From NCBI GenBank assembly GCA_015056945.1, contig SVFH01000005.1, forward strand, positions 62,001 through 126,000: a DNA stretch of 64,000 bases. Reading direction: 5' to 3'. Made by a program: the position numbers and the translations under genes. Each line of letters starts with the position of its first letter. Position 1 is the first letter of the stretch. Positions 2,451 through 36,014 of this stretch are shown here, in pieces. This stretch comes from Lachnospiraceae bacterium. GTDB taxonomy: Bacteria > Bacillota > Clostridia > Lachnospirales > Lachnospiraceae. Below the pieces are notes generated by a model. That model was not told the origin of the DNA. It did no database searches and saw nothing but the letters and a program-made list of their open reading frames with translations.

Positions 2451-5400
2451 TTATCTTACGATTTTTACCTTACATGTGAATGTGTACGGTTTTTTATCTA
2501 CTGCTCCGTCCGTAAGCGTCACAGCAAATTTCAAGGTGTAAGTACCTTGTGATTTTTTAATTGTGGTAGGTTCTTTGTCTGTTCTGAAGCTCAAAATTCC
2601 GTTTTCGTATTTTAAGTCATCTGTGTAGTTTAAGAGTTCCACATTTTTAATGTCTGTCCATCTTCCGTTTGTATATGCTTCAGGGAAAACAAGCATTCGA
2701 TTTCCTTTGTTTGCATATAAAGTATCTCCGTGAGATGATTTCACGAATTTAACACTGCCCTGTTTTACCTGGAAAGTAACCGGTGCTGCTTTCACAATAA
2801 CATCCTCATACTTGCAAACCGGTGTCACCTTATACATCTTCTTGGTAGAAAGCTGTACGCCTTCTTTCGCATATACCTTACACTTTCCGTTTCCATCATA
2901 AGTTGTTTCAAACAAAGCCGCATCAGCACCTTCTAAATGCATATCTTCAAGGAACATATTCTCAAGATTTCCCTTTTCGGTTACACTTAATGTCATATAT
3001 GTACCATAACGGTCTAACACGTCAATGCTGCCCTTCTTGGTTACCTTGATTGACTTCTCAAGTGACTCATCTACAATCTTTACATTAAAGTTAAAGGACA
3101 CCGTTCCTGCACCAAGCTTTGTTTCTGCTTTGTACTTGTAAATACCCGTTTCAAGATATGTACCGGCCTTTTTATCACCTTTGTCAACAACAGAAGCGAA
3201 AATTTCAGTCGGATATCCCTCAATCCTCAAGTTATGCTCCATTGCTTTCTTGGATTTTTCATCCAAACCGGTAATCCGGGTTCCTTCTGTTTCAACAGAG
3301 GAAAGATTACCGCTGTTACCGATTTGAACCTCAATATAATCATATGCATCACGATACATTGCTTCATTTACATTTAATGTAAGAGTATTCTTTGAAAGTT
3401 TTACTTTGGTCTTGGATACAAGAACTTTGTTTTTAATGGTTACATCCACAGTTCCCTTCCAGTTGTCATTAGAAATTCTGAATTTCATAACATCTGTAGC
3501 TTTTACTGCAGTATCCGGATTCGCTAATTCAACACAAATACCGTTCCATGAAGTATACAGATAATAAGTATTCTTACCTACTTTAACAGGAGTGCCTTTA
3601 CTTTCGTCTCCCCAATTAAATGTTACCAGTTCAGTAAGCTTACCTGTCTTTGCATCAACAAGCTGCACCTTACCCTCGAGAGAATCCAGTGCACCTTTTG
3701 TATCAGAAAATACCGGTGTATATGACAACTTTGTAATGCCGTAATAGGTATTCATTTCTCCAACATTACCCTTAATCGCCCAGAATTTTGATACCTTCGG
3801 TGCCTTTTTAACGGTTTTTACCGTAAAGGTTGTTGTTCCTATATAGTTTGCAGCATCTGCGTGCACTTCGTATGCCAGAGTAACCTTCTTCTGAGTCGCG
3901 GTTAAATCTTTCCCGACAAACTCATCCCTTAAAGATAATGCATACTTATTGGTCTCATTCCAGTGTAAAATAAAAGGACTGTTCTGATCAGCAATTTCCA
4001 TATTTACCAATGCGCCCTTTGCAACTTTGGTTGTAAATTCAATATCGGCGCCTTTTTTGTAAAACTCGTTATACGGAGCATTCTGTTTGATTGTAAGCTT
4101 AATTTTTGTTTCTTTTACAACAATTTTTAATTTGCTTTCAAATTGCTTCTTTTCGCCCTTTACCGTATATTCTGCCTGTAATGTTACATTATATGTTCCG
4201 TTCTTTAATGACGGATTCTTCAAAGTAACAAGATACATACTGTTTTCGGCATACTTAATGTCAAAGTTCTTTGCATGTTCCGCTTCTTTGATTTTCATTT
4301 CGCCTGTAATCACAACATCGTTGTGGCTGAAAATCTCAACAAAATCTCCGGGAACCTCATCATTTAATCCTTTATCAAGTGTTACGGATGCCGTACCCAT
4401 CTTAGGCGCATAATCCACACGCTCCAACTTAAAGCCTTTGGCCGTCTTTACTTCGTCAGATGAAATAACAGAAAGTGTTGTTGTTCCGGCTTTTACAAAT
4501 TCATAAGGAATTGTGATTGTCACGAAATTCTCCGCTACTTCTGTTTTCACTTTGCCAAGCTTTAATACAGAGGTATCTTCACTCTTTACAGTAAGTTTCT
4601 TAGCAACCTTATAATTCTCGGAAGCAACTTTCACTGTAAGCATACCCTTCATTTCTGTCGGATTTGCATCTGTCAATGTAAATACTTCCGGCGCAAAAGA
4701 AAATAAATCATTTGCAGTTACAACTAAGTTAGCCTTCTTTATTGCAAGTGCCTTTTTACTGTTTGCGCTCATAACAGAAACCTGTAAGGTTTTCTTGCCT
4801 TTTGTAGCCGCAGTATAGCTTCTCGGAGCGCAGATTGCAGCCTCGGAAATAAGTTCTTCTGATAAAAGTTCTCCCTTTTCCTTGTCTGTCCATTTTACGG
4901 AAAGCTTGCCTGCCTTCACATACTGTTTTAGTAAATCAACTGCCTCCTTGGATGAATTGTTTGTCAAAAGTTCTGCGCACAAAACAATCTTTTCATCCTT
5001 CTTAATGGAATTCGGTAATGCAATATAAGCCTGTTCGTTATTAAAGGCACCGATTTCAACACCGGTAATCCAAACAAGATCCACACGCACCAAAACAGAA
5101 ACCGGATTTCTTCCCTTTACGGTATATATAGCTTCTGCCTGCATGAAATCTGCACCTGCATAATCTGCTAAATTAACGGATGCATCTTTCCATGCAAAAG
5201 TACCCTCTGCACCTTTAACAATCGCATTCAAATCAATGTCTGCCAATGTGCCGTTTACCTGCGGAGCTGCGTAGATTGCAGGAATTGCAGGTACTTTAAC
5301 AGTAGGAAGCACGCGAATTACACAGGTTGCGCTTGCTCCTGCATAGCTGACTTTGACTACTGTCTCACCAAAACCGGTAATCTTATAGGGATACTTTTTG

Positions 5401-7550
5401 CCCCAACCGTTTTCGTAGTAATAATCCGGAAGGAATTCAATACCGTTTCCGCTTACAACTTCCCATGTACAAGTATCCGGCCAAATGTTTTCTGTAGCAG
5501 GTAAATATGCTACTTCAAGGAAATGAACATCTCCGTTGTCCGTACCATCCCATTCAAGTTCAATCTCGGGATATGTAAATTTAAACTTTGTTGCGCCATG
5601 GACTGTGTTGTAGTTCCAAAGTTGTGCAATCCTTTCGCCTGCGGCATCAAGATAAGTACACAATACTGTCACTGAAGAACCGGGGGTAGCTCCATATAAT
5701 ACCCAATCCTCTGTAAAATGTTCCAGACCTGCTTCTCCATCCACAATACGAAATGAAATATTATGCGCTCCCTCTTCCTCTACGGTAAGCACTAATCCGT
5801 TTACCGTGTCCAAAAGACCTTTTTCGTATGTAACAGAAGGATTATACAACACATTGGGAAACGTCGCCTCAATCCTACTCATATCATCAACGATTAATTT
5901 TGTATACCCAGCATCAGTCCAGTATCTTATTGAAGCTACGGGATTGTGAATCAATCCTTCTCTAAAAACATACAAGGGGTGTTCTGAAGCCACAGTAAAA
6001 TCAGCTGCTTCTCCCAATCCGGGCAAAAGAACATTTTTATACAATTCATTGTTTTCCGTAGCGTACACTGTAACAAAAGTGTCCTCACTGTATTCCCTCT
6101 TATCTGCAAACGTAAGAACGGTTTCTTTATCGTCGTTTAATTGGATTGAAATCTCACCGTTGATATCACTCTCTAACGCTTCAGGGTTTTCAAAGCCCCA
6201 AACCACCATCGTTTCATTTCGTTCCTTGATCACAACACCATCCGATTCCTCACCGGGTTCTATCAGATTATTAAACTGGAAATTAATCTGCCCTCTATCT
6301 TCCGATAATATACGCGTACGTAACATTTCATAAATATCTTTCTTAATTACATAACCGCCTGCAGCAGATTGTGTGACAAAAATATTATCAAACTTTATTC
6401 CTTTTGAAGACCAGTAAGAAACAATATCCTCACAAACATCTGCATTAAAAGAATCAGCATCAATCATATTAGAATCAAGTGTTAATGCAGAAGAACCATC
6501 ATCCTGTACACTGGCATATCCTATATATTTGCCATCTTCATTAAACGGTCCCATTTCGGTACCGGGAGGTAAGGTTCCGCCACCATTATTTTCGTTTACC
6601 CCTTTAATTGTATAGGTCTTACCTGCTTCAAGTTCGGCCAAGTCTAATACATAAGTATCTACATACCAGCCTTCACGAATGGAAACATATGCATCTGAAA
6701 GATAATCGTTTCCGTCAAAAAGTGCATATTCTTCACAATCACCATATGCTAAGACAAGTTTTTCACGCTCCTCATGTGCCCAGTATAGCATGATTTCACA
6801 TTCGCTATAACAACCGAAATCAGTTGATGCAAAACAAACAGACATACCCTCATCCGGATTACCGATTGAATATGAAACCGAAAGCTCCACCTCATTCTCG
6901 CGTTTTATCGGTGACCAAAATTCATATCCATATGCAACATGGTCATCCATGATTTGAAAAGCAATATTCGTTTCAAATTCCTCTGTTTCTTTCATAATCT
7001 TCAGTGCTTCATTCCATAATTCAGACGAAATAGTATGGAACCCTGAAGATTTCTCTAAATTAAAGAAAACTCTTTGAAACGGTTCCGTTTGTGCCTGTAA
7101 AACAGCAATCAGATTTTCTGTCGTCACTTCCATACCTGAAGCTCTCATCTCATCTTCATATATGGCAAGTATACGTCCAAACACATCATTTTCATTAATC
7201 GTACCTGTATACGGCACCTCATTTGCTTGCGTATCCGCAACAACATTAGATTCCTCTGTTATTTCTTCAGATTCTTCTGTTACCTCTTCAGAAGCTTCCT
7301 CCGTCGTTTCTTCTGACACAGTTTCCTCTGTTACCTCTTCAGAAGCTCCCTCTGTCGTTTCTTCCGACACTGCTTCCTCTGTTACCTCTTCAGAAACTTC
7401 TTCCGAAGCTTCCTCTGACACAACTTCTTCCGCATTCTCTGCAGCTAAAACACGGATGGATGATAACTCAACGGTAGAGAGCATCATAATCAGTGCCAAA
7501 GCTATTGCAAAAACACGTCTGAAAGTTGCTTCAATCTTTCTCTTTTTCAA
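2451..7550 (-). CDS. Large secreted repeat protein with acidic Ser/Thr/Glu linker
   Basis: About 1699 residues from a TTG start at 7550, behind GGAGG at 10 nt. A TTG at 7586 opens a longer frame but has no ribosome-binding site. A basic N-terminus and a hydrophobic core followed by VLA-AEN form a signal peptide. Next comes about 60 residues of near-repeats built on SEEVTEE and SEETTEEA, then a non-repetitive stretch. The rest is long beta-rich sequence resembling serial immunoglobulin-like/bacterial adhesin modules (patterns such as KTKVKLSKNTLTL and VTIKNKV). No LPXTG, SLH or catalytic motif is visible, so the surface attachment is unknown. It is probably a cell-surface or secreted structural or adhesive protein. 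I do not recognise a named family. Confidence 0.75.
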   Translation of the reverse strand: MKKRKIEATFRRVFAIALALIMMLSTVELSSIRVLAAENAEEVVSEEASEEVSEEVTEEAVSEETTEGASEEVTEETVSEETTEEASEEVTEESEEITEESNVVADTQANEVPYTGTINENDVFGRILAIYEDEMRASGMEVTTENLIAVLQAQTEPFQRVFFNLEKSSGFHTISSELWNEALKIMKETEEFETNIAFQIMDDHVAYGYEFWSPIKRENEVELSVSYSIGNPDEGMSVCFASTDFGCYSECEIMLYWAHEEREKLVLAYGDCEEYALFDGNDYLSDAYVSIREGWYVDTYVLDLAELEAGKTYTIKGVNENNGGGTLPPGTEMGPFNEDGKYIGYASVQDDGSSALTLDSNMIDADSFNADVCEDIVSYWSSKGIKFDNIFVTQSAAGGYVIKKDIYEMLRTRILSEDRGQINFQFNNLIEPGEESDGVVIKERNETMVVWGFENPEALESDINGEISIQLNDDKETVLTFADKREYSEDTFVTVYATENNELYKNVLLPGLGEAADFTVASEHPLYVFREGLIHNPVASIRYWTDAGYTKLIVDDMSRIEATFPNVLYNPSVTYEKGLLDTVNGLVLTVEEEGAHNISFRIVDGEAGLEHFTEDWVLYGATPGSSVTVLCTYLDAAGERIAQLWNYNTVHGATKFKFTYPEIELEWDGTDNGDVHFLEVAYLPATENIWPDTCTWEVVSGNGIEFLPDYYYENGWGKKYPYKITGFGETVVKVSYAGASATCVIRVLPTVKVPAIPAIYAAPQVNGTLADIDLNAIVKGAEGTFAWKDASVNLADYAGADFMQAEAIYTVKGRNPVSVLVRVDLVWITGVEIGAFNNEQAYIALPNSIKKDEKIVLCAELLTNNSSKEAVDLLKQYVKAGKLSVKWTDKEKGELLSEELISEAAICAPRSYTAATKGKKTLQVSVMSANSKKALAIKKANLVVTANDLFSFAPEVFTLTDANPTEMKGMLTVKVASENYKVAKKLTVKSEDTSVLKLGKVKTEVAENFVTITIPYEFVKAGTTTLSVISSDEVKTAKGFKLERVDYAPKMGTASVTLDKGLNDEVPGDFVEIFSHNDVVITGEMKIKEAEHAKNFDIKYAENSMYLVTLKNPSLKNGTYNVTLQAEYTVKGEKKQFESKLKIVVKETKIKLTIKQNAPYNEFYKKGADIEFTTKVAKGALVNMEIADQNSPFILHWNETNKYALSLRDEFVGKDLTATQKKVTLAYEVHADAANYIGTTTFTVKTVKKAPKVSKFWAIKGNVGEMNTYYGITKLSYTPVFSDTKGALDSLEGKVQLVDAKTGKLTELVTFNWGDESKGTPVKVGKNTYYLYTSWNGICVELANPDTAVKATDVMKFRISNDNWKGTVDVTIKNKVLVSKTKVKLSKNTLTLNVNEAMYRDAYDYIEVQIGNSGNLSSVETEGTRITGLDEKSKKAMEHNLRIEGYPTEIFASVVDKGDKKAGTYLETGIYKYKAETKLGAGTVSFNFNVKIVDESLEKSIKVTKKGSIDVLDRYGTYMTLSVTEKGNLENMFLEDMHLEGADAALFETTYDGNGKCKVYAKEGVQLSTKKMYKVTPVCKYEDVIVKAAPVTFQVKQGSVKFVKSSHGDTLYANKGNRMLVFPEAYTNGRWTDIKNVELLNYTDDLKYENGILSFRTDKEPTTIKKSQGTYTLKFAVTLTDGAVDKKPYTFTCKVKIVR
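7240..7440 (-). repeat. Tandem repeat coding for an acidic Ser/Thr/Glu linker
   Basis: Roughly 51-bp units encode SEEVTEE-x-x-SEETTEEA; two full copies and several partial ones can be read. The repeat is coding (it lies after the signal peptide of the large secreted protein) and is a likely site of length variation by slippage. Confidence 0.75.
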
Positions 7551-7746
7551 TTCCTTTCTTCCTCCTTTTAGTATGGTTTTTATCAAAAAACTACAAGTAC
7601 TATGCTAGCATAATTTCCCCCTCAATACAATGGATATTCCATGCAAAATACGCTGATTTATTACGAATTTACTACATTTTTTGAACTTGTTCACGGGCAC
7701 ATATCACAATATTGTTATTTTTGTTTTATATGTGCTTTTAGACTGA

Positions 7747-9920: not shown

Positions 9921-10751
9921 TTACATCTCACCCAAAGATTTTAGCCACGCCACCGATTCCTGCAATGCTTCAATCGTCTTTGTTTCCAGAACGCATCTTG
10001 CATTCCTTTTATCCGCAAGTGCCAGGCGCTTCTTTAAATCAATCTCGCCATGGCCTAATGCAAGATGATTGCGGGATGGTTTCTCACTTCCGTCATGAAT
10101 ATGAAAATGCGCAATCTTTTCCTGATTCTTAAGAAGAAACGGCTCGTCCTGTTCTCCTACTGATTTGGAATGTCCGATATCCCAAGTAAGAACAAAACAT
10201 TTACTTTCCAGCATACGCGCAATTACCTGCTTCTCATAAGTCCGGAATCCGTCCGTATTCTCGATTGCAATCCTTATATCCGCATCGCCAATCCAGCTTT
10301 CGCAAGCTTCTATAAAGGACAAAAAATGCTCCTTATACACCTCAAAATCACGTTCATACATCTGCACCTTTCGATCCGGCAACGTAATATAGATACCGTG
10401 ATGCATATGCATATTGATGATAAAGGGCTGTTCTTTTTGCCCGTACTTATCTTTCAATCTTACCAGAAGTTTTGCCACCTCTATGGTTCGGCGGACGGTC
10501 TCCAAATATGCCTCTCTGACCAAGGGATTAAAGTCTGCAATATTCAGATTTTCGTCCAAATGAATTGTATAATAAATCCCTGCCGTCTCTGCCATTTGTT
10601 CTAAATAATCAATCTCTTCAAGCCTGTCAATCTGATACTCCGGAAAATTCATATTCAACTCGACAAAGGATAAATCCAATGATTTGCACAGTGCAATATT
10701 TTCTTCCAAAGTTTTATTTTCAATCAATGTAGGCATTCCGAATACTGTCAT
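9921..10751 (-). CDS. Sugar phosphate isomerase/epimerase (xylose isomerase-like TIM barrel)
   Basis: 276 residues, close to the usual family size. Metal-ligand motifs of the AP-endonuclease-2/xylose isomerase-like fold appear in order: IENTDG (Glu), WDIGHSK (Asp/His), HFHIHDG (His), LGHGEID and CVLETKT (Glu). This suggests a divalent-metal isomerase or epimerase acting on a sugar or sugar phosphate; the substrate cannot be told. It starts at ATG 10751 behind AGAGGAGG, which lies inside the last codons of the upstream 83-residue ORF; the two frames overlap by 4 nt. Confidence 0.85.
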   Translation of the reverse strand: MTVFGMPTLIENKTLEENIALCKSLDLSFVELNMNFPEYQIDRLEEIDYLEQMAETAGIYYTIHLDENLNIADFNPLVREAYLETVRRTIEVAKLLVRLKDKYGQKEQPFIINMHMHHGIYITLPDRKVQMYERDFEVYKEHFLSFIEACESWIGDADIRIAIENTDGFRTYEKQVIARMLESKCFVLTWDIGHSKSVGEQDEPFLLKNQEKIAHFHIHDGSEKPSRNHLALGHGEIDLKKRLALADKRNARCVLETKTIEALQESVAWLKSLGEM

Positions 10752-10999
10752 CTAATCACTCCTCCTCTTTGTATTTCAAACAACTTTGACTTATGCTTTG
10801 CACTGTAATTAAGGTATATACCAAAGCAAATCAACGCAATTCCAATGAGTTTAAACGGAATATTCAATATGTCAATTTTTCCAAAATCAAAATAGCCATA
10901 GTATAATATAATGATCCCTATTACAGTAATGATAACTTGTAAAGCAATGATGATAGGACCAACACCAAATAACGGCAGATGTTTCTTTTCTGTTTTCAT
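10748..10999 (-). pseudogene. Truncated N-terminal half of an isoprenylcysteine methyltransferase-like membrane protein
   Basis: 83 residues with two hydrophobic segments (about 12-34 and 47-66). The opening LPLFGVGP and the pattern up to HKSKL resemble the N-terminal membrane part of bacterial ICMT/PEMT-like methyltransferases. The usual catalytic half, with a G-Y-x-x-x-R-N-P motif, is missing. The frame instead ends in RGGVIR, codons that also supply the ribosome-binding site of the sugar isomerase. I read it as a gene cut by a deletion that joined it to the next gene. It has its own ribosome-binding site (AAAGGG), so a small membrane protein may still be made. The family match is from memory of sequence pattern only. 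Confidence 0.55.
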
Positions 11000-11071
11000 T
11001 TTTACTGCCCTTTCTTTTCAGTTCTACATTGTTTCCTGAAATTTTGTTATAGTAAGATTCGCCATCACATA

Positions 11072-11686
11072 CTATATCTTCTTCAAAACAATTACCCTTG
11101 TATAATCACAATGTATATCTTCTTGAATGCTTAGTCCATATCTCTCAAAATATGAATATAAATCCATCTTTATAAATTTGCGATATGTTTTCGGTTCCAA
11201 ATAGTGAATCGGTGCAAATAATATTCTCTTGGATAACTGCTTACTTGGTTCCCATTCTGTTATAATAATTTCTCCACCATCCTTTAAAACCCTGTTTGCT
11301 TCTGTAATAATTTTTACTGCAAGCGCCTCGTCCAGTTCATGTAAAACAAGGGAAATAAGAATTTTATCAAAACAATTGGATTTGAATTTAAGATGAGTCG
11401 CATCCATATGATACAATCTGATATTTTTTAGTCCGTTTTTCCTTATTTTATTTTGAGCCACTTTCAGCATATCTTTCGACAAATCAATTCCTATAATTTT
11501 AGCATTTGTTTTTTCCTTGGCAATAGTAATCGCATTTGTAGCAGTTCCGGTACACACATCAAGAATTTTCTCATTTTCATATATTCTATCCAAAACAGCT
11601 TTTCTCGGACTTTTTTTGAAATTTCTAAAATAGATTACATCTAACAGGTCATAACCTTTAGATATTATTTTATAAAACACCTGCAT
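11072..11686 (-). CDS. Class I SAM-dependent methyltransferase (UbiE-like)
   Basis: 204 residues. The SAM-binding motif I is ILDVCTGTATNAI (about 41-53), followed by the acidic GIDLSKDML and by MDATHLKF, with the post-motif VLHELDE and VLKDGGEIIITEW typical of the UbiE/Coq5 type. The substrate is unknown. It has three cysteines, but not in the pattern I would expect of arsenite methyltransferases. Its start lies within 10 bp of the stop of the membrane methyltransferase upstream, and both follow the ArsR gene, so it is probably in an ArsR-controlled operon. Confidence 0.85.
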   Translation of the reverse strand: MQVFYKIISKGYDLLDVIYFRNFKKSPRKAVLDRIYENEKILDVCTGTATNAITIAKEKTNAKIIGIDLSKDMLKVAQNKIRKNGLKNIRLYHMDATHLKFKSNCFDKILISLVLHELDEALAVKIITEANRVLKDGGEIIITEWEPSKQLSKRILFAPIHYLEPKTYRKFIKMDLYSYFERYGLSIQEDIHCDYTRVIVLKKI

Positions 11687-11691
11687 ATTCT

Positions 11692-12267
11692 TTACCCTTT
11701 TCCAAAATATCTTGATGTATGTTTTTTATATGTGTCGTATTCATCTCCAAACATATGATGCATATGCTTTTCTTCTTGCAATATTTGAAGATGCAACATA
11801 ACAGCCGCCCACACGGAAACCAGCACTAACGGAATATTGAAAAACATAAGGCATATGGAAAGATACAACAAATCAAATCCAACAAATGCCGGATTTCTGC
11901 TGAAGCGGTAGATTCCTTGTGTAATCAGAGTTGTTTTCTCTTCCGGAATTCCTACCCGCCAACTGGTCTTCATTGTAATCGTTGCTAACGCAAAGAAAAT
12001 CACACCAAGGATACCTACCAAAACTCCGACAATTCTGATTTCCGTTACAGGACAATGCTTCACTATAAAAATGCTTCCCACGCCAATAATACATGTCAGC
12101 ACCGTTGCCATGCTCATAATACGTTCAATACGCAATACCTTCTTCGGTTTATTACCGATTCCCATCTGATTTGTTTTAATGGATTGCTTTTTCTGAATCA
12201 CAATTTTCGCAAAATAGAATGTATAAAAAACAAGTAGAATTAATATAGCTATTATCCGAAAAATCAT
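11692..12267 (-). CDS. Isoprenylcysteine carboxyl methyltransferase-like integral membrane methyltransferase
   Basis: 191 residues with about five hydrophobic segments. The C-terminal half has the ICMT/PEMT family signature: TQGIYRFSRNPAF near residues 120-132 and an EEKHMHHMFGDEYDTYKK tail. Family members methylate lipids, prenylcysteines or other small molecules using SAM at the membrane; the bacterial substrates are mostly unknown. The start follows AGGAGG and is 10 bp after the ArsR stop. Confidence 0.85.
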   Translation of the reverse strand: MIFRIIAILILLVFYTFYFAKIVIQKKQSIKTNQMGIGNKPKKVLRIERIMSMATVLTCIIGVGSIFIVKHCPVTEIRIVGVLVGILGVIFFALATITMKTSWRVGIPEEKTTLITQGIYRFSRNPAFVGFDLLYLSICLMFFNIPLVLVSVWAAVMLHLQILQEEKHMHHMFGDEYDTYKKHTSRYFGKG

Positions 12268-12276
12268 TTGTACCTC

Positions 12277-12639
12277 CTAATCCAGCGGACATGTAATCTG
12301 AAAAATCTCTTCGCAGATTTCATGGATATGCTCTGCAACTAAGGTGTCAGCAAGTTTATAATATATTTCTTTTCCCTCACGACGACTTACTATCAGGCCT
12401 GCATTTCTTAGAACCTTCAGGTGATGCGAAACCGCCGGATCACTCATTTCCATTGCTGCTGAGATATTACTTACACATTCTTCACAATGACATAAGAACC
12501 ACAAAATACGAAGCCTCGTTCCATCACTGATTTGCTTAAAAATATCCGCAACCATTCTACATTCGTCTACAGTTGGCAATTTATCAAGAATCTTCCCTTC
12601 ATTTTGACCGTGGTCATGTGGCAAAACATTTCTTTCCAT
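12277..12639 (-). CDS. ArsR/SmtB-family winged-helix repressor, likely metal-responsive
   Basis: 120 residues. The recognition helix region reads SDPAVSHHLKVLRNAGLIVSRREGK, the classic ArsR core, followed by the EIYYKLAD wing. Possible metal ligands are a CHCEEC cluster near the start of the DNA-binding domain, in the position of the alpha-3 site, and an Asp/His/His/Glu set in the last helix (DTLVAEHIHEICEE), in the place of the alpha-5 zinc site of CzrA-type sensors. The N-terminus also has HDHG. It heads a set with two methyltransferases and probably represses its own promoter. Confidence 0.9.
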   Translation of the reverse strand: MERNVLPHDHGQNEGKILDKLPTVDECRMVADIFKQISDGTRLRILWFLCHCEECVSNISAAMEMSDPAVSHHLKVLRNAGLIVSRREGKEIYYKLADTLVAEHIHEICEEIFQITCPLD

Positions 12640-12697
12640 CTTATTTCCTCCTGTTATTCATGTGAACATTTAAGCACTCGTTTAATCGTATGTGTAT

Positions 12698-12726
12698 ATT
12701 TAAACATATATTTAAATGTTTGTCAA
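12698..12726 (-). promoter_or_regulatory. ArsR operon promoter with overlapping operator-like inverted repeat
   Basis: A minus-strand TTGACA (12726-12721) lies 17 bp from a TTAAAT -10 (12703-12698). An imperfect palindrome, AAACAT-8-ATGTTT (12702-12721), fills the spacer, which is where ArsR-family repressors commonly bind. Confidence 0.65.
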
Positions 12727-12757
12727 GTTCATTATTGAAAAAAGGCAGCCTTACGAC

Positions 12758-12785
12758 CGTAATGTGACGTAATGCGAACGTAATG
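12758..12785. repeat. Three helically phased CGTAATG repeats
   Basis: CGTAATG occurs at 12758, 12768 and 12779 (spacing 10 and 11 bp). The last copy runs into the left 61-bp inverted repeat. Two further copies lie at the edges of the right inverted repeat (16478 and 16554). Confidence 0.7.
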
Positions 12786-12842
12786 CAAATCTAATATTTT
12801 TTCATGAATCTAAGATGTTTACACAAAATAATTTACACTCTC
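12782..12842 (+). repeat. 61-bp inverted repeat, left copy
   Basis: This 61-nt segment recurs in inverted orientation at 16484-16544 with a single difference (T versus G at position 35 of the unit). It begins AATGCAAATC and ends TTTACACTCTC, and it lies directly beyond the terminator of the flavodoxin gene. Nothing inside it codes for protein. Confidence 0.95.
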
Positions 12843-12873
12843 AAAAAAAGAGCCGATTAATCATCAGCTCTTT
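12843..12873 (-). terminator. Terminator of the lipase-to-flavodoxin operon
   Basis: On the minus strand AAAGAGC pairs with GCTCTTT around a 13-nt loop, and the T run continues past the stem. It is 35 bp after the flavodoxin stop and abuts the left inverted repeat. Confidence 0.8.
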
Positions 12874-12907
12874 CAATCCATATTCCAACAGTCTTTACGC
12901 TTCTATA

Positions 12908-13405
12908 CTACACTCCCAACATCGCACAAAACTCCGCTATTTTAGCATCATCTTCCGCTTTGACATTAACTTTCGGGTCTATTAAAATAAGCTCTGCCTC
13001 AAAATTTTCAACACCAATAAGCTTTTTCATTTTATTGATGGTTTTATCTGCTCCGCCACCGCCAAAACAGATGACAACCGCAAGTTTCTTATTCTTAATT
13101 TCCGGATTCTCTGTAATGAAAGTTCTGAGCGGAGGTGCAAAAGTACTTGCCCATACCGGTGTCCCCAATATGATTCTGTCATACTTCTCAACATCAAATT
13201 CATACGGCTTTAAGGTCGGTTTTTCTCCCATGACGGCACTTTTACCACCCCAGAAAAACTTTCCTGCCCCTTTGTCCGGATAAGCCTTTTCCGGTTCAAT
13301 TCTTAAGACATCCGTTTCACCGGTTTGCTTTAATTGTTCAGCAATTTTTTCAGCTGTATATTCTGTATTTCCTTCCAATGAATAATAAACGATTGCTGTT
13401 TTCAT
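12908..13405 (-). CDS. Flavodoxin
   Basis: 165 residues. The N-terminal FMN phosphate loop is YSLEGNTEYTA; later loops are LGTPVWASTFAPPL (flavin contact) and CFGGGGADKT. It is most like the flavodoxins encoded beside oxidoreductases in Clostridia, serving as a low-potential one-electron carrier in the cytoplasm. It is the last gene of the operon between the inverted repeats, 47 bp after the radical SAM gene. A flavodoxin is a natural electron donor to radical SAM enzymes, so the pair may work together; that link is inference. Confidence 0.92.
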   Translation of the reverse strand: MKTAIVYYSLEGNTEYTAEKIAEQLKQTGETDVLRIEPEKAYPDKGAGKFFWGGKSAVMGEKPTLKPYEFDVEKYDRIILGTPVWASTFAPPLRTFITENPEIKNKKLAVVICFGGGGADKTINKMKKLIGVENFEAELILIDPKVNVKAEDDAKIAEFCAMLGV

Positions 13406-13452
13406 TCTTTGCTCTCCTCAAAATATGTTTCACTATATTCCCTAAATTTGTT

Positions 13453-14337
13453 TTATTGAAAGATAAAATCTTCTAATGTAATCTGCTTTCCGGCTGCTTT
13501 ATCCTCAAATTCCTGCATGTAAGCAAAAAGCGCCTCACTATCGCAAACGATTCCGTTACGTGCACACTCATCCTTCACCAGTTTCATCAATTTTCTGCTG
13601 TCAGGGGAAGGAATCTCATAAGCGTTCCCATAGGTTCTGATGTACTTCTCTTTCATACCCGGGAAATGCCTGTCCAATTGTTCATAAAAGTATTCTCTGT
13701 CACCTTCCCGCAGGGTAAGTCCGATACCAAACAAAAGAATGCCATACACTTTCGCCTCTTTGCAATAATTCAAAATTCCACGAATATTCTCTTCCGTATC
13801 ATTGATAAAGGGCAATATCGGTGTCATCCAGCATATGGTCGGAATTCCCTCATCACGCAAAATTTTTAAAACTTCAAACCTTTTCTTTGTCGTACATACC
13901 CCCGGTTCGAGAATCCTACATAATTCTTCATCATAAGTCGTCATGGTGATTTGCACGACACATTTTGTTTTGCTGTTAATACTCTTTAGCAGGTCCAAAT
14001 CACGAAGTATTAAATCTGACTTCGTTTGAATCGCGAGGCCGAACCCGTATTCATCAATAAGTTCCAAGCATCTCCTTGTGAGCTTAAGCTCCTTTTCAAT
14101 CGGCAGATACGGATCACTCATAGAACCGGTTCCAATCATGCAACGCTTTCTTTTTCTGCGCAGTGTGTCTTCCAAAAGTTTGGGTGCATTCACCTTAACG
14201 GCAATATCCTCAAAAGCATGATCCATCTGATAACAGGTACTTCTGGCATCGCAATAGATACATCCGTGAAGACACCCTCTGTAAAGGTTCATTCCGTTTT
14301 GCGGACTCAGTATTGATTTTGCAATCATTTCATGCAT
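13453..14337 (-). CDS. Radical SAM protein (Rv2578c/SPL-like group)
   Basis: 294 residues. The cluster-binding motif is GCLHGCIYCDAR (Cys-x3-Cys-x2-Cys, about residues 22-29), unusually near the N-terminus and preceded by LSPQNGMNLYRG, as in the spore-photoproduct-lyase-like and Rv2578c-type radical SAM proteins. Further family pieces are GTGSMSDPYLPIE, IQTKSDLILRD and ITMTTYDEE. It would bind a 4Fe-4S cluster and cleave SAM; the substrate is not evident. It lies between the DUF3021 gene and the flavodoxin gene on the same strand. Confidence 0.88.
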   Translation of the reverse strand: MHEMIAKSILSPQNGMNLYRGCLHGCIYCDARSTCYQMDHAFEDIAVKVNAPKLLEDTLRRKRKRCMIGTGSMSDPYLPIEKELKLTRRCLELIDEYGFGLAIQTKSDLILRDLDLLKSINSKTKCVVQITMTTYDEELCRILEPGVCTTKKRFEVLKILRDEGIPTICWMTPILPFINDTEENIRGILNYCKEAKVYGILLFGIGLTLREGDREYFYEQLDRHFPGMKEKYIRTYGNAYEIPSPDSRKLMKLVKDECARNGIVCDSEALFAYMQEFEDKAAGKQITLEDFIFQ

Positions 14338-14351
14338 AAAATTACCACATC

Positions 14352-14792
14352 CTATTCTTCCACACTCTGCTGAAACTTCACCAGATCCCGTTCCAGTCTC
14401 TTTGCCATCAGAGCGTTCTGTGACCAGCCAATCAGGCTAATCATTACATAAATCACCAGAATACTGACTGCCATTCCCACAAAACTCGGAACACGACCGG
14501 AGAAATCATCTACACCAAAAAAAGCAGCAAACAGCACCAAAAATTCAACCAGAATAAGCTGAATGACTTTTCTTATTAGTAATTCTCCGACTTTTAATTC
14601 TCTTTTGGAATACATGACAATATTGGGCAGGATTCCGAGTAGTCCGTATACCAAAGGAACCATAAAAGCATCATAGCCAACCGACTCTTCCGGCGCCATG
14701 ATAAGCCCCAATACGCATATTGCCACATTAATCAATGTTACCGCTGCAAAAAAAGACCTTAAACAGTCCATCACAAATTCTTTTCCATGCAT
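14352..14792 (-). CDS. DUF3021 four-helix membrane protein, partner of LytTR regulator
   Basis: 146 residues with four hydrophobic segments (about 10-32, 42-60, 72-95 and 105-125) and a charged C-terminal tail, matching the DUF3021 family. In LytTR regulatory systems, a small membrane protein of this kind is encoded next to a LytTR-domain regulator and restrains it. Here the start codon overlaps the stop of the LytTR gene (TAATG), which implies coupled translation. Confidence 0.85.
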   Translation of the reverse strand: MHGKEFVMDCLRSFFAAVTLINVAICVLGLIMAPEESVGYDAFMVPLVYGLLGILPNIVMYSKRELKVGELLIRKVIQLILVEFLVLFAAFFGVDDFSGRVPSFVGMAVSILVIYVMISLIGWSQNALMAKRLERDLVKFQQSVEE

Positions 14793-15238
14793 TAATACGC
14801 ACCACCTTTCAGGGCTCTTCTTAACTCCTGTACATACTTTCTGGAGATAATAATCTCTTCACCGCTTTTTAGAACTGCCGTCAGACGTCCGTTTAACGCA
14901 GGCTTAATCGCTTGTATCTTCATCAAATTCAGAAGCATCGATTTAGATACCCGCAGAAAATATTTCTCCTTCAACAACTCCTCCAGTTCATAGAGTCTCT
15001 GTCTGGTCTCATAAACCTGTTTTGATGTATAGAGAAATGTTCTCTCATCCACCGCTTCAATATAGCAAATATCCGTAACAGGAATTTCATATTGTTTCCC
15101 TTCCTGTACGCCGGTCAACTGCCCGTTTCTGGTCTTTATAAATGTGACAATTTCCCGCACTTCCTCCGTCACTTCGTGACAGCGGATTTCTACCTCTTCC
15201 GATTGTTCCTCTGCGATTTTTCGTATTTTTACCTGCAT
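14792..15238 (-). CDS. LytTR-domain DNA-binding regulator
   Basis: 148 residues with no receiver domain. The C-terminal about 95 residues are a LytTR domain: ICYIEAVDERTFLYT, RLYELEELLKEKYFLRVSKSMLLNL and then SGEEIIISRKYVQELRRAL. The short N-terminal part is charged (Glu-rich). LytTR proteins bind paired direct repeats about two helical turns apart, and such repeats occur upstream of the operon (16445-16475). It is translationally coupled to DUF3021 and probably autoregulates the operon. Confidence 0.92.
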   Translation of the reverse strand: MQVKIRKIAEEQSEEVEIRCHEVTEEVREIVTFIKTRNGQLTGVQEGKQYEIPVTDICYIEAVDERTFLYTSKQVYETRQRLYELEELLKEKYFLRVSKSMLLNLMKIQAIKPALNGRLTAVLKSGEEIIISRKYVQELRRALKGGAY

Positions 15239-15249
15239 CTTTTATCCTT

Positions 15250-16374
15250 CTAATAGCTTTCTTCCAGCACAAATTCTCCTTCGCCTTTCAGATAAAAATC
15301 ATAGTACGAAAGGATAATTTCGTTCATGGTTGCAATACACTCTGTAGCATCTGCTTCTCCCACGCCAAGCATGGACGCCAGTGCCGGTGAGAACAAGGGC
15401 AAATCCGTAAAATTCATATGTCCGCTTCCCACAAAATAAGTATAATGGCTCTCTTTGGCATTTGCAAGAACCACATGATTCACATAAAGATTTCCTGCTT
15501 CTTCCCCTTGCAAATAGTGCTCCTCGTTGCTTAACGCCAACAGGGGAACGGGATATTCTCCCTTATAAAAATCATATGTGCCGTTTTCATAACTGAGTTC
15601 TTCTCCTAACATTGTACCATCGAGGTCAATAACCGCATCAATGTCATCTCTGGTCCTGCCTAATGTTACGCTACTTGCGCCCCCCAAAGAATGCCCCATG
15701 ACGCCTATGGTCTGCGTATCTGTCATAGCTAAAATTGTTTCAATATCACCTGCAACCGTTTCATCCGTTACATACCAATCGGACGGCTGTAACACTCCGG
15801 CTGTCTTTGTTTCTTTTATTGTATCCAATACAAAGTTCATATCAGCCAATCTGACTTCAAGCCATGAATGTAACAATGCAATGATTTCATCCTCCGCCAT
15901 GGTTTCCTCATTCACACGCATGACATCCTGTATAAATGCGGAATTTACGATTATGGTTTTGCCTGTCGTATCCGTTGTAAAAAAAGAATGGTAAGGATGA
16001 TCCAAACTGACTACCACATAGCCGTGACTTGCCAGTTCCATATAGGTAGAGGTATTGCTCTGATAATATCCAAATGCTCCATGCGAGAAAAGAATTAACG
16101 GACAGCTTTCTTCCGTTTCCGTCACAGGATAATAAAAATACACCGGCACTTCACGCTTGGAACCATCTGTTTCAAAAGACTCAATACGGTTGTTATCGAT
16201 AAGAATTGCCGAAGCCTGCGCCACTTCATACGGTCCTGTCGTAGGAAGACCTTCGTAATCCGTAAAAAGAAGCTTGGGGATGAGAATTACTGCAATGACG
16301 ATGAGCAACAGAATGCTTGCAGGAATCATAATTACAAGACGTTTTCGGTTGTGTTTTTTATTGGTATTTTTCAT
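15250..16374 (-). CDS. Membrane-anchored alpha/beta hydrolase, PAF-acetylhydrolase/lipase-like
   Basis: 374 residues from the ATG at 16374, behind AAAGGTG. A basic N-terminus and one membrane segment (about 10-32) anchor it, with the enzyme domain likely outside the cell. The nucleophile elbow is GHSLGGASS, with ILFSHGAFGY as the oxyanion strand, DLDGTM as the likely acid region and GSGHMNF as the likely catalytic His. This order fits platelet-activating-factor acetylhydrolase-like and dienelactone-hydrolase-like esterases. It is the first gene of the five-gene operon and ends 12 bp before the LytTR gene. The substrate (lipid, ester or other) is not known. Confidence 0.85.
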   Translation of the reverse strand: MKNTNKKHNRKRLVIMIPASILLLIVIAVILIPKLLFTDYEGLPTTGPYEVAQASAILIDNNRIESFETDGSKREVPVYFYYPVTETEESCPLILFSHGAFGYYQSNTSTYMELASHGYVVVSLDHPYHSFFTTDTTGKTIIVNSAFIQDVMRVNEETMAEDEIIALLHSWLEVRLADMNFVLDTIKETKTAGVLQPSDWYVTDETVAGDIETILAMTDTQTIGVMGHSLGGASSVTLGRTRDDIDAVIDLDGTMLGEELSYENGTYDFYKGEYPVPLLALSNEEHYLQGEEAGNLYVNHVVLANAKESHYTYFVGSGHMNFTDLPLFSPALASMLGVGEADATECIATMNEIILSYYDFYLKGEGEFVLEESY

Positions 16375-16444
16375 TTCTGTCACCTTTCCTTTCGTTGATA
16401 AGGTGACTGTAAAAGATTTGCCGAAAGATTGCAATACAATATGG

Positions 16445-16475
16445 GGTAAGATGCACAAAGAGACGGTAAGATGCA
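16445..16475 (-). promoter_or_regulatory. Paired 11-bp direct repeats, candidate LytTR operator
   Basis: GGTAAGATGCA (plus strand) occurs exactly at 16445-16455 and 16465-16475, 20 bp start to start, about 70-100 bp upstream of the lipase-like gene. LytTR regulators typically bind paired direct repeats spaced near two helical turns. Assigning it to the LytTR protein of the same operon is inference. Confidence 0.5.
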
Positions 16476-16483
16476 GGCGTAAT

Positions 16484-16544
16484 GAGAGTGTAAATTATTT
16501 TGTGTAAACCTCTTAGATTCATGAAAAAATATTAGATTTGCATT
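16484..16544 (-). repeat. 61-bp inverted repeat, right copy
   Basis: This is the inverted partner of 12782-12842, matching at 60 of 61 positions. It lies 110 bp upstream of the first gene of the operon, so the two copies enclose the five genes with their promoter region and terminator. It begins GAGAGTGTAAATT on the plus strand. Confidence 0.95.
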
Positions 16545-16576
16545 CGTAGGGGACGTAATGTGAATTTTTAAAATAA

Positions 16577-16605
16577 TATAGGGAGCCTAATACAGACTCC
16601 CTATA
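16577..16605 (-). terminator. Probable terminator of ppdK
   Basis: A minus-strand 9-bp perfect stem (TATAGGGAG with CTCCCTATA) and an 11-nt loop are followed by a T-rich tail. It lies about 175 bp after the ppdK stop. The same stretch also holds a perfect 10-bp hairpin at 16731-16754 (CTTATTGAAC/GTTCAATAAG, no T run) and a weaker TCTGGG/CCCAGA hairpin. The ppdK 3' region is therefore structured but codes for nothing I can see. Confidence 0.6.
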
Positions 16606-16779
16606 CAACGTATAGCTTCATTATAATCTTTTCCGGGAAATGAAATGTATTTTGACTATGATAAAGCCTTGCGCTTCGAATCATATAGTCTCTGGGTATT
16701 TCATAAGTCCCCAGAAAACAAGCGGAATCTCTTATTGAACTATCGTTCAATAAGCATCCCTCGCCATAGGCTCGGTTAA

Positions 16780-19410
16780 TTACTGTTTGTTGTTGATAGC
16801 TGCCTGTGCTGCTGCAAGTCTTGCGATAGGCACTCTGAACGGTGAACAGGATACATAATCAAGTCCTAACTTATGGCAGAATTCTACGGAAGTAGGATCT
16901 CCGCCGTGCTCACCACAGATACCGATGTGAAGCTTATCATTTACAGGCTTACCAAGCTTAATTGCTGTTTCCATAAGCTTACCAACGCCGGTCTGATCCA
17001 ATTTCGCAAACGGATCGTTCTCAAAAATCTTGCTGTCATAGTAAGCATCTAAGAACTTACCTGCATCATCACGTGAGAAACCGAATGTCATCTGTGTTAA
17101 GTCATTGGTACCGAAGCAGAAGAAATCAGCTTCCGCTGCAATTTCATCAGCAGTAAGTGCTGCACGGGGAATTTCGATCATAGTACCAACTTCGTACTCT
17201 AAAGCGATTCCTGCTGCTGCAATTTCTGCATCTGCAGTTTCAACCACCATCTTCTTAACAACCTTTAACTCTTTGATTTCACATACAAGCGGAATCATGA
17301 TCTCAGGCTTTACGTTCCAATCCGGATGTGCTTTCTTAACAGCGATTGCTGCGCGGATAACAGCCTTAGTCTGCATCTTTGCAATTTCAGGATAAGTAAC
17401 TGCAAGACGGCATCCTCTGTGACCCATCATCGGGTTGAACTCATGAAGAGAATCAATAATGGTCTTAATCTCTTCTACGCTCTTGCCCTTAGCATCTGCA
17501 AGCTTCTTAATATCTTCTTCCTCTGTCGGAACGAACTCATGAAGAGGCGGATCTAAGAAACGAATGGTAACAGGATTTCCTTCCAAAGCTTCGTATAATT
17601 TCTCAAAGTCTCCCTGCTGATAAGGTAAAATCTTATCAAGTGCAGCTTCTCTTTCTTCCACTGTATCAGAACAAATCATTTCACGGAATGCTGCAATTCT
17701 GTCTTCCTCGAAGAACATATGCTCGGTACGGCAAAGACCGATGCCTTCTGCACCAAGTTCACGAGCCTTCTTTGCATCTGCAGGAGTATCTGCATTGGTA
17801 CGAACCTTAAGTACGCGATACTTATCAGCCCATGCCATGATACGTCCGAATGTACCTGTAATGGTTGCATCCACGGTAGGAATGATACCATCATAAATCT
17901 TACCGGTAGAACCATCGATAGAGATGAAATCACCTTCGTGATATTCTTTGCCGGCAAGTGTAAACTTCTTGTTTGCTTCATCCATTGCGATATCACCGCA
18001 ACCGGATACACAGCAGGTTCCCATACCTCTTGCAACTACCGCTGCATGAGAGGTCATACCGCCACGAACAGTTAAGATACCCTGCGCAGCCTTCATACCT
18101 TCAATATCTTCAGGAGAGGTTTCTAAACGAACAAGAACTACCTTCTCGCCTCTTGCATTCCACTCTTTCGCATCTTCTGCAGTAAATACAATCTTACCGC
18201 AAGCAGCACCCGGTGAAGCACCAAGCGCTTTACCTACGGGTTCTGCAGCCTTCAATGCCGCCGCATCAAACTGAGGATGTAACAGAGTATCCAGGTTTCT
18301 CGGATCAATCATGGAAACTGCCTTCTCCTCTGTAATCATACCTTCATCAACCAAGTCACATGCAATCTGCAATGCAGCCTGTGCTGTTCTCTTACCATTA
18401 CGTGTCTGAAGCATGTATAACTTCTTATCTTCAATGGTAAACTCCATATCCTGCATATCTCTGTAATGATCTTCCAATGTAGCACAAATCTTAATGAACT
18501 GGTCATATACTTCAGGCATAACATTCTGTAATTCTGAAATCTTGTTCGGTGTACGAACACCTGCAACAACGTCTTCACCCTGGGCATTCATAAGGAATTC
18601 ACCCATAAGCTTCTTCTCGCCTGTAGCCGGATCACGTGTAAATGCAACACCGGTACCTGATGTATCACCCATGTTACCGAATGCCATCATCTGTACGTTA
18701 ACTGCAGTTCCCCATGAATAAGGGATATCATTGTCACGACGATAGATATTCGCTCTGGGGTTGTCCCATGAACGGAATACAGCCTTAACGGCAGCCATTA
18801 ACTGCTCCTTCGGATCTGTAGGGAACTCTTCACCGATTTTTGCCTTATATTCAGCTTTGAACTGATTTGCAAGTTCTTTCAAATCATCTGCAGTAAGGTC
18901 AACGTCCTGTGTAACGCCCTTTGCTTCCTTCATCTCATCGATGAGTTCTTCAAAGTATTTCTTACCTACTTCCATAACTACGTCAGAGAACATCTGGATA
19001 AATCTTCTGTAGCAGTCCCATGCCCAACGGGGATTGCCGGATTTCGCAGCAAGAACTTCAACAACTTCTTCATTCAAACCAAGATTCAAAATAGTATCCA
19101 TCATACCGGGCATGGAAGCTCTCGCACCGGAACGAACGGAAACAAGGAGGGGATTCTCTTTATCGCCGAATTTCTTTCCTGTGATTTCTTCCATCTTTGC
19201 AATGTATTCCATAATCTGAGCCTGGATTTCATCATTAATCTTCTCTCCATCCTCATAATACTGTGTACATGCTTCTGTTGTGATGGTAAATCCCTGCGGT
19301 ACAGGTAAACCGATATTGGTCATTTCTGCAAGGTTCGCACCTTTACCACCTAAAAGATTACGCATATCTGCGCTACCTTCTTTAAATAAATACACCCATT
19401 TCTTTGCCAT
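16780..19410 (-). CDS. ppdK: Pyruvate, phosphate dikinase
   Basis: 876 residues, the normal bacterial length. It interconverts pyruvate, ATP and phosphate with PEP, AMP and pyrophosphate in the cytoplasm; anaerobes often use it in glycolysis. The N-terminal ATP-grasp part has LLGGKGANLAEM and SVRSGARASMPGMMDTILN. The swivelling domain has the phosphorylated His in GGMTSHAAVVARGMG. The C-terminal PEP-binding barrel has GLCRTEHMFF, NPMMGHRGCR, FGTNDLTQM and the catalytic Cys in GICGEHGGDP. The start follows GGAGGAAGGATA. It is monocistronic by context. Confidence 0.98.
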   Translation of the reverse strand: MAKKWVYLFKEGSADMRNLLGGKGANLAEMTNIGLPVPQGFTITTEACTQYYEDGEKINDEIQAQIMEYIAKMEEITGKKFGDKENPLLVSVRSGARASMPGMMDTILNLGLNEEVVEVLAAKSGNPRWAWDCYRRFIQMFSDVVMEVGKKYFEELIDEMKEAKGVTQDVDLTADDLKELANQFKAEYKAKIGEEFPTDPKEQLMAAVKAVFRSWDNPRANIYRRDNDIPYSWGTAVNVQMMAFGNMGDTSGTGVAFTRDPATGEKKLMGEFLMNAQGEDVVAGVRTPNKISELQNVMPEVYDQFIKICATLEDHYRDMQDMEFTIEDKKLYMLQTRNGKRTAQAALQIACDLVDEGMITEEKAVSMIDPRNLDTLLHPQFDAAALKAAEPVGKALGASPGAACGKIVFTAEDAKEWNARGEKVVLVRLETSPEDIEGMKAAQGILTVRGGMTSHAAVVARGMGTCCVSGCGDIAMDEANKKFTLAGKEYHEGDFISIDGSTGKIYDGIIPTVDATITGTFGRIMAWADKYRVLKVRTNADTPADAKKARELGAEGIGLCRTEHMFFEEDRIAAFREMICSDTVEEREAALDKILPYQQGDFEKLYEALEGNPVTIRFLDPPLHEFVPTEEEDIKKLADAKGKSVEEIKTIIDSLHEFNPMMGHRGCRLAVTYPEIAKMQTKAVIRAAIAVKKAHPDWNVKPEIMIPLVCEIKELKVVKKMVVETADAEIAAAGIALEYEVGTMIEIPRAALTADEIAAEADFFCFGTNDLTQMTFGFSRDDAGKFLDAYYDSKIFENDPFAKLDQTGVGKLMETAIKLGKPVNDKLHIGICGEHGGDPTSVEFCHKLGLDYVSCSPFRVPIARLAAAQAAINNKQ

Positions 19411-33137: not shown

Positions 33138-33184
33138 AAAGAAAAACGAAAAGAAATATTTTCCTTTCCGTTTCGTTTTTCTTT
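33138..33184 (-). terminator. Terminator-like hairpin after the EAL/beta-solenoid gene
   Basis: A minus-strand 13-bp perfect stem, AAAGAAAAACGAA with TTCGTTTTTCTTT, overlaps the last base of the stop codon. The descending arm is T-rich but no long T run follows. Confidence 0.6.
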
Positions 33185-35985: not shown

Positions 35986-36014
35986 AAGCAATACTGCTCC
36001 TTCTCTAATAGCTT

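Follow-up and report, generated by a model that had tools for sequence, protein, structure and literature searches.

Within a 64,000-nt stretch of the genome of Lachnospiraceae bacterium (GCA_015056945.1, contig SVFH01000005.1, positions 62,001-126,000, forward strand; the whole of this stretch is called the window below), one operon is enclosed by two inverted, nearly identical arms. Alignment to intact elements shows that these arms correspond to the terminal part of the right ends of an IS256-family insertion sequence (IS), 61 bp on the left and about 70 bp on the right, standing in opposite orientation around the operon. We consider it fairly probable that two inverted IS copies once flanked this operon in the layout of Tn4001 and then lost their bodies and outer ends, and that the operon itself is of the LytTR Regulatory System (LRS) type. 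The arms are decayed right ends around an ordinary LRS-type operon, that is, known kinds of element in a somewhat unusual layout, and the locus most likely represents genomic debris, not a new mobile element or a switch.

A repeat search of the window placed the inverted arms at 12782-12843 and 16483-16544 (62 nt, 98% complementary, 3639 nt between them) with their sole mismatch at 12816, in agreement with the two near-identical segments reported by the first-pass annotation. According to BLASTN of window positions 12725-12850 against the own genome (2,696,068 bases in 48 contigs, 88% complete), the second arm matched at E = 1e-24, and the next-best match covered only 17 nt (E = 0.08); all 31 inverted 16-mer pairs in the 64-kb window fall within these two arms. 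Because of these E-values and 16-mer pairs, the arms are neither a chance likeness nor a common repeat of their own assembly, and the idea that the repeat might be a common genomic element found no other copy in this genome to rest on. No arm copies were found in 60 relatives at E <= 0.01, and no viral contig held an exact match to a 31-nt arm pattern; a 34-nt arm pattern was matched in four stretches of GTDB contigs, two of which (L132 and L133) have the same end sequences as L129 and L122. The assembled sequence alone gave no sign that the repeat arose as an assembly artefact.

The family was searched in 397 Lachnospiraceae genomes including the own one, with at most two candidates scored per genome. 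Arm matches at E <= 0.01 were present in 40 of the 396 other genomes, eight of them below 1e-8; the weaker matches, which are short and perhaps due to chance, were left unused except L130. Among the 13 other loci with such ends (L122-L134), four carry a trace of a transposase, intact in L126 and L134 and broken in L128 and L130. L126 is a complete element of 1539 bp with two inverted tips and a 413-aa Transposase_mut (Pfam) protein, flanked by the 8-bp target duplication ATCTATTT; the other complete element, L134 (1486 bp), encodes a 413-aa Transposase_mut transposase that scored 438 bits for the NCBIfam IS256 family (cut-off 150). The right ends of L134 and L126 resemble the arms at 96% over 49 bp and 87% over 53 bp, respectively. 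A nearly identical right end, in L131, agrees with the right arm in 60 of 61 bases, and beyond these both continue with CCCCTACG; L131 came from the GTDB scan, where it belongs to a Lachnospiraceae bacterium sampled from water deer cecum, and it begins at a contig end, with its element body out of view. Since the arms match the right ends of intact elements, they are relics of IS termini, as the first-pass annotation had considered. Both arms also contain GAGAG-TGTAAA, with TGTAAA at bp 6-11 from the tip. This hexamer is conserved in IS256-family ends, and in the right end of ISCth4 bp 6-11 form a -35 box TTTACA read outward, according to the available text of PMC7780238. The features of the arms are as follows.

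12782..12842, plus strand: left arm, a truncated IS256-family right end with its tip (12842) toward the operon and its interior side outward, from alignment
16484..16553, minus strand: right arm, a truncated right end of the same element with its tip (16484) toward the operon and homology to L131 up to about 16553, from alignment
12832..12837, plus strand: TTTACA, bp 6-11 from the left tip (TGTAAA on the other strand), from sequence; motif as in the available text of PMC7780238
16489..16494, minus strand: TTTACA, bp 6-11 from the right-arm tip, from sequence; motif as in the same text

In the alignment to intact elements, the IS tip (GAGAGTGTAAATT...) forms the inner edge of each arm, at 12842 and 16484. 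Because the tips point inward and the IS bodies are missing, the arms are not the termini of a transposon made of the operon; a transposon bounded by these tips would comprise everything except the operon. The earlier proposal that termini or a pair of miniature inverted-repeat transposable elements (MITEs) had moved the cassette as a unit was therefore not upheld. Movement as a unit needs the outer ends of two IS copies, i.e., a composite, and none could be traced: the outer ends of a Tn4001-like composite were not found in the flanks, no left IS tip stood above shuffles in the outer intergenic flanks (every tip tried was matched by at least 26 of 200 shuffles), and when the transposase and two whole elements were searched against 2 kb on each side, no match fell below E = 0.02. 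A complete IS256-family element, with transposase and both ends, was not found at the locus.

The length of the repeat is set by the left arm, since this remnant is the shorter one. L131 runs outward as TCCCCTACG, and the right arm does likewise to about 16553, some 9 bp beyond the left-arm length, whereas the left arm differs. The exactness of the repeat needs no special mechanism, because the IS tips bound it on the inner side and the shorter remnant on the outer side. A cut of both arms at the same base, which would need such a mechanism, was rejected, as the homology to L131 goes on in the right arm only; a self-contained 61-bp MITE with its own second tip was also rejected, as the arm from 12787 inward aligns with the right ends of L122, L124, and L126. 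The outermost five arm bases have a counterpart in L131 only.

Some further observations concern these ends. A stretch in the right end of L131 (58-81) resembles other loci in five genomes, with 96-100% identity over 21-24 bp. All three of these loci that were checked proved to be tRNA-Glu(ctc) genes, the similarity lying in the 3' portion (T-arm); the last bases of this tRNA-like stretch of L131 are retained at 16545-16553 of the window's right arm, and a chimeric IS end seems to have spread. In addition, L143:1042-1066 (own contig C48, 11541-11565) reads GAGAGTGTAAATAATTTACACTCTC, two perfect inverted arms around one base, which looks like two IS tips head to head.

The block between the arms holds five genes, all on the minus strand and forming one operon, as listed below. 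As the first-pass annotation had stated, the arms enclose a single five-gene unit; four of its products (PAF-acetylhydrolase-like hydrolase, LytTR, radical SAM, and flavodoxin) lie above the Pfam cut-off, and the DUF3021 assignment lies below it. Its statement that no transposase or recombinase is encoded inside the block also stands, on the open reading frames (ORFs) and Pfam.

15250..16374, minus strand: PAF-acetylhydrolase-like alpha/beta hydrolase (PF03403, E 2.6e-21)
14792..15238, minus strand: LytTR DNA-binding regulator (PF04397, E 2.1e-26)
14352..14792, minus strand: DUF3021-like membrane protein, putative LRS inhibitor (PF11457, 21.3 bits, cut-off 24.7)
13453..14337, minus strand: radical SAM protein, related to the Rv2578c/PA0069 families (below their cut-offs)
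12908..13405, minus strand: flavodoxin (PF12724, E 2.6e-12)

The hydrolase frame has 458-484 codons in L010, L011, L015, L016, and L017 and 414 in the window; in some of those relatives the DNA upstream would encode an N-terminal stretch of membrane-like character.

The operon probably works as an LRS, judging from its genes and from the sites predicted around it. In LytTR Regulatory Systems, 9-nt direct repeats 11-13 bp apart are located about 10 bp upstream of the -35 box, as described in the available part of PMC6193735. The corresponding sites here are given below.

16445..16473, minus strand: direct repeats CATCTTACC-N11-CATCTTACC, predicted LytTR operator inside the arms; layout as in the available part of PMC6193735
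16406..16434, minus strand: predicted promoter of the operon (TTGCAA-N17-TACAGT), read from the sequence, with 10 bp between it and the operator upstream
12843..12874, minus strand: predicted terminator hairpin with its T-run abutting the left IS tip (fold -15.9 kcal/mol)

The operator halves (16445-16453 and 16465-16473) are 11 bp apart and lie 10 bp upstream of TTGCAA. Operator, promoter, and terminator are all predicted to lie inside the arms and to be independent of them. This partly sustains the earlier view that the leader and the terminator are enclosed as well: the predicted sites are there, but neither the promoter nor the hairpin is listed by the consensus scan. The promoter is weak (eight of 12 consensus matches, below the threshold of that scan), and promoter-like sites in the scan were no more numerous than in shuffles. 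Of the 17 loci that include sequence upstream of the hydrolase, 16 carry repeats of the form CATYTTACC-N11-CATYTTACC there, L167 being the one without them and L113 and L118, which begin inside the operon, falling outside this count; one substitution per half was allowed, and the motif was chosen by eye from some of the same loci, so that the count is not independent. Elsewhere in the 31 trio or ppdK loci (trio meaning the hydrolase, LytTR, and DUF3021 genes together) the motif had three matches, one of them upstream of a LytTR gene without a hydrolase (L120). In the proposed mechanism, the LytTR protein would be held back by the DUF3021-like membrane protein and would activate its own promoter via the CATCTTACC direct repeats, and this activation would switch on the hydrolase, the radical SAM protein, and the flavodoxin.

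The hydrolase-LytTR-DUF3021 trio occurs together in 10 of 30 other genomes of the same genus, including G028 (hydrolase split over two contigs) and G007 (split over two frames). No arm was detected in these 30 genomes at E <= 0.01, nor in the 31 trio or ppdK loci at E <= 0.1, and the stretches of 3.9-20 kb examined around the 10 same-genus trios showed neither a radical SAM nor a flavodoxin gene similar to those of the window. In the family sample, the hydrolase was present at E <= 1e-60 in 12 of 396 other genomes; each of the 12 has LytTR next to it, and 10 have a DUF3021-like gene there as well (G160 ends at a contig end). The four closest relatives by ppdK (G001, G006, G019, and G027; completeness 74-97%) are without the hydrolase at E <= 1e-20 and without the radical SAM gene at E <= 1e-30. 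A hydrolase + LytTR tree of 22 rows (midpoint root; G028 and the second copies L160 and L161 left out) contains a 12-row group (support 99/97) that includes all nine same-genus rows used and excludes the window. Relatives and tree together fit the view that the operon was acquired separately from the trios elsewhere in the genus; the absence of the hydrolase and radical SAM genes in the closest relatives fits acquisition as well and does not show that this IS brought it about.

Matches to ppdK at E <= 1e-60 were found in 22 of the 30 same-genus genomes. In G372, an intact IS256-family element (L126) lies within about 500 bp after ppdK, and in G160, which belongs to another genus of the family, hydrolase and LytTR genes follow ppdK (L150/L162); the region downstream of ppdK may be a frequent place of insertion. 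Apart from weak matches to a far gene of the window (33184-35991) in two of them, the 11 more widely covered ppdK loci showed no protein of the window other than ppdK. An ancestral linkage of ppdK and the trio, suggested by G160, was tried as an explanation and not retained; the tree puts G160 with G241 and G114 (100/100) and not with the window, and it does not fix the deeper order.

The borders of the block carry a repeated box of their own. CGTAATGNGA occurs five times in the 64 kb against 0.36 expected (none of 100 shuffles reached five), and four of the five boxes stand at the two borders, all on the plus strand.

12758..12777, plus strand: two tandem CGTAATGNGA boxes just outside the left arm (motif count)
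16478..16487, plus strand: CGTAATGNGA box overlapping the right-arm tip on its inner side (motif count)
16554..16563, plus strand: CGTAATGNGA box directly outside the right arm (motif count)

Two CATTACG 9-11 bp apart were found genome-wide only here, as two overlapping matches, and the reversed control pattern gave one match. The boxes could be what is left of an array of target sites; they could also have arisen as a direct repeat upon insertion, or serve as operator sites. The best relative for the ArsR operon used as an anchor, L187 of G036 (ArsR 77%, methyltransferase 74%), shares the arsR promoter from TTGACA inward, and the CGTAATG boxes upstream of arsR are missing there. The left arm has no clear 8-bp target duplication at its borders; a 3-bp duplication, CGT, at the outer edges was dropped as short and not of IS256 length.

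We explain the locus by two oppositely oriented IS copies that would have flanked the operon as inverted repeats, with a later deletion of outer ends and bodies that would leave two inert inner ends. Such a pair would account for two copies of one IS end, 98% identical, lying within 3.7 kb around one operon and nowhere else in the own assembly. The origin was perhaps a Tn4001-like composite, and whether the former composite-like arrangement delivered the operon to its present place we judge to be about evenly balanced. Several observations weigh against this history. A composite is not demonstrated, because neither the left IS end nor the IS body is present. The only candidate target duplication, GGCGTAAT/GACGTAAT at the right arm (seven of eight positions), lies inside an array of similar boxes and is ambiguous, and the complete element L134 has no clear target duplication either. 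The block has 41.1% GC against 39.7% (standard deviation 1.4) in the window, within one standard deviation, so there is no compositional sign of foreign origin. No empty site was available for comparison, the neighbours of the window's ppdK being found in none of the 11 more widely covered loci, three of which span only 1.4-6.0 kb. The midpoint-rooted tree does not fix the place of the window relative to G425 and the group of G160. Finally, the position of the operon does not need an IS, because in G160 hydrolase and LytTR stand behind ppdK without arms. Together with the arm-less trios of the genus, the G160 locus gives a mixed answer to the earlier expectation that relatives with the same five genes in the same place but without the repeats would refute the first-pass reading; in the tree, other genes stand closer to those of the window than the G160 genes do.

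The same facts bear on a rival history, in which two separate insertions of one IS256-family element, in opposite orientation and into the intergenic regions on either side of a pre-existing operon, both decayed and the IS never moved the operon. This is possible but rather unlikely. It agrees with the arm-less trio loci and with G160; solitary ends of this kind are also seen elsewhere, as right ends at L122 and L124, where 3.06 and 3.05 kb of sequence contain no transposase, and as one truncated IS256-type 3' end on contig C37 of the own genome. It sits poorly with the single close bracket, since the assembly holds no other copy of the end; this argument is not strong, because repeated elements may be missing from an assembly of 88% completeness. 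A literature search on IS256 solo ends returned nothing on point among the matches listed. A further reading takes the arms as outward-acting ends of a MITE-like pair or mobile insertion cassette by which the whole operon is moved; in its favour are the close bracket around one transcription unit and the lack of hydrolase and radical SAM genes in the closest relatives. In mobile insertion cassettes and MITEs, however, the tips face outward, so that the inward tips here contradict this reading, and no second copy of the arms was found in the own genome or, at E <= 0.01, in the 60 relatives; we regard it as highly improbable.

Inversion of the block between the arms by homologous or site-specific recombination is possible in principle, given 62-bp inverted repeats of 98%, and for Tn4001 an inversion between the two IS256 copies has been proposed (available text of PMC10100801). 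That it serves as a switch is very doubtful: an inversion would carry the predicted promoter and terminator along with the operon and thus leave its expression unswitched, and no recombinase was found among the ten genes of 10748-19410 (ORFs and Pfam). There is similarly little to be said for a hybrid promoter whose -35 box (TTTACA) is supplied by the inward right end upstream of the operon. The hexamer at 16489-16494 points at the operon, a TTTACA of this kind is present in the right end of ISCth4, and hybrid promoters are formed by IS256 (PMC7780238, available text); yet the hexamers 16, 17, and 18 bp downstream (ATCTTA, TCTTAC, and CTTACC) lack A2 and T6 of a -10 box, the consensus scan lists no promoter site at this position, and an operator-promoter of the conserved kind sits further in. 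An even bolder proposal, for which we see only a very slight chance, is that the inward right ends are still functional and that an IS256 transposase acting in trans could join them and so release or rearrange the operon. Each right end retains its tip and, presumably, the inner transposase-binding site; if true, the locus would be an inside-out composite with a self-activating LRS operon as its passenger.

One side observation concerns another part of the window: a tandem repeat with a 51-bp period (shared 16-mers) was noted at 7276-7393, within a large ORF (2451-7586).

The locus shows how a striking inverted repeat around one operon can come from plain decay, and it may be a case of a composite IS256 layout with a sensory operon as its cargo instead of drug resistance. 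A hydrolase-LytTR-DUF3021 module that recurs in Lachnospiraceae and has a predicted operator of its own is documented here as well. In comparison with known systems, Tn4001 consists of inverted IS256 copies arranged as a composite (PMC10100801, available text), and the locus resembles it in that two pieces of one IS256-family element, in opposite orientation, flank an operon as passenger; unlike Tn4001, it has only two inner right ends and no outer ends or bodies, and its passenger is an LRS-type operon rather than drug resistance and was never shown to move. IS256 and ISCth4 share with the arms TGTAAA at bp 6-11 of the tip, the related elements encode an IS256-family transposase, and one of them, L126, has an 8-bp target duplication; in contrast to IS256 and ISCth4, the locus retains no more of the right end than 61 bp in one arm and about 70 bp in the other, and the transposase and left end are missing. 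Mobile insertion cassettes and MITEs likewise place transposase-less inverted IS ends around DNA, but the tips at this locus face inward. The operon itself resembles HdrRM and BrsRM of Streptococcus mutans, as far as they are described in the available part of PMC6193735, in combining a LytTR regulator with an adjoining membrane protein and 9-nt direct repeats 11 bp apart located 10 bp upstream of the -35 box, and it differs from them in its extra genes, with the PAF-acetylhydrolase-like hydrolase first and the radical SAM protein and flavodoxin last.

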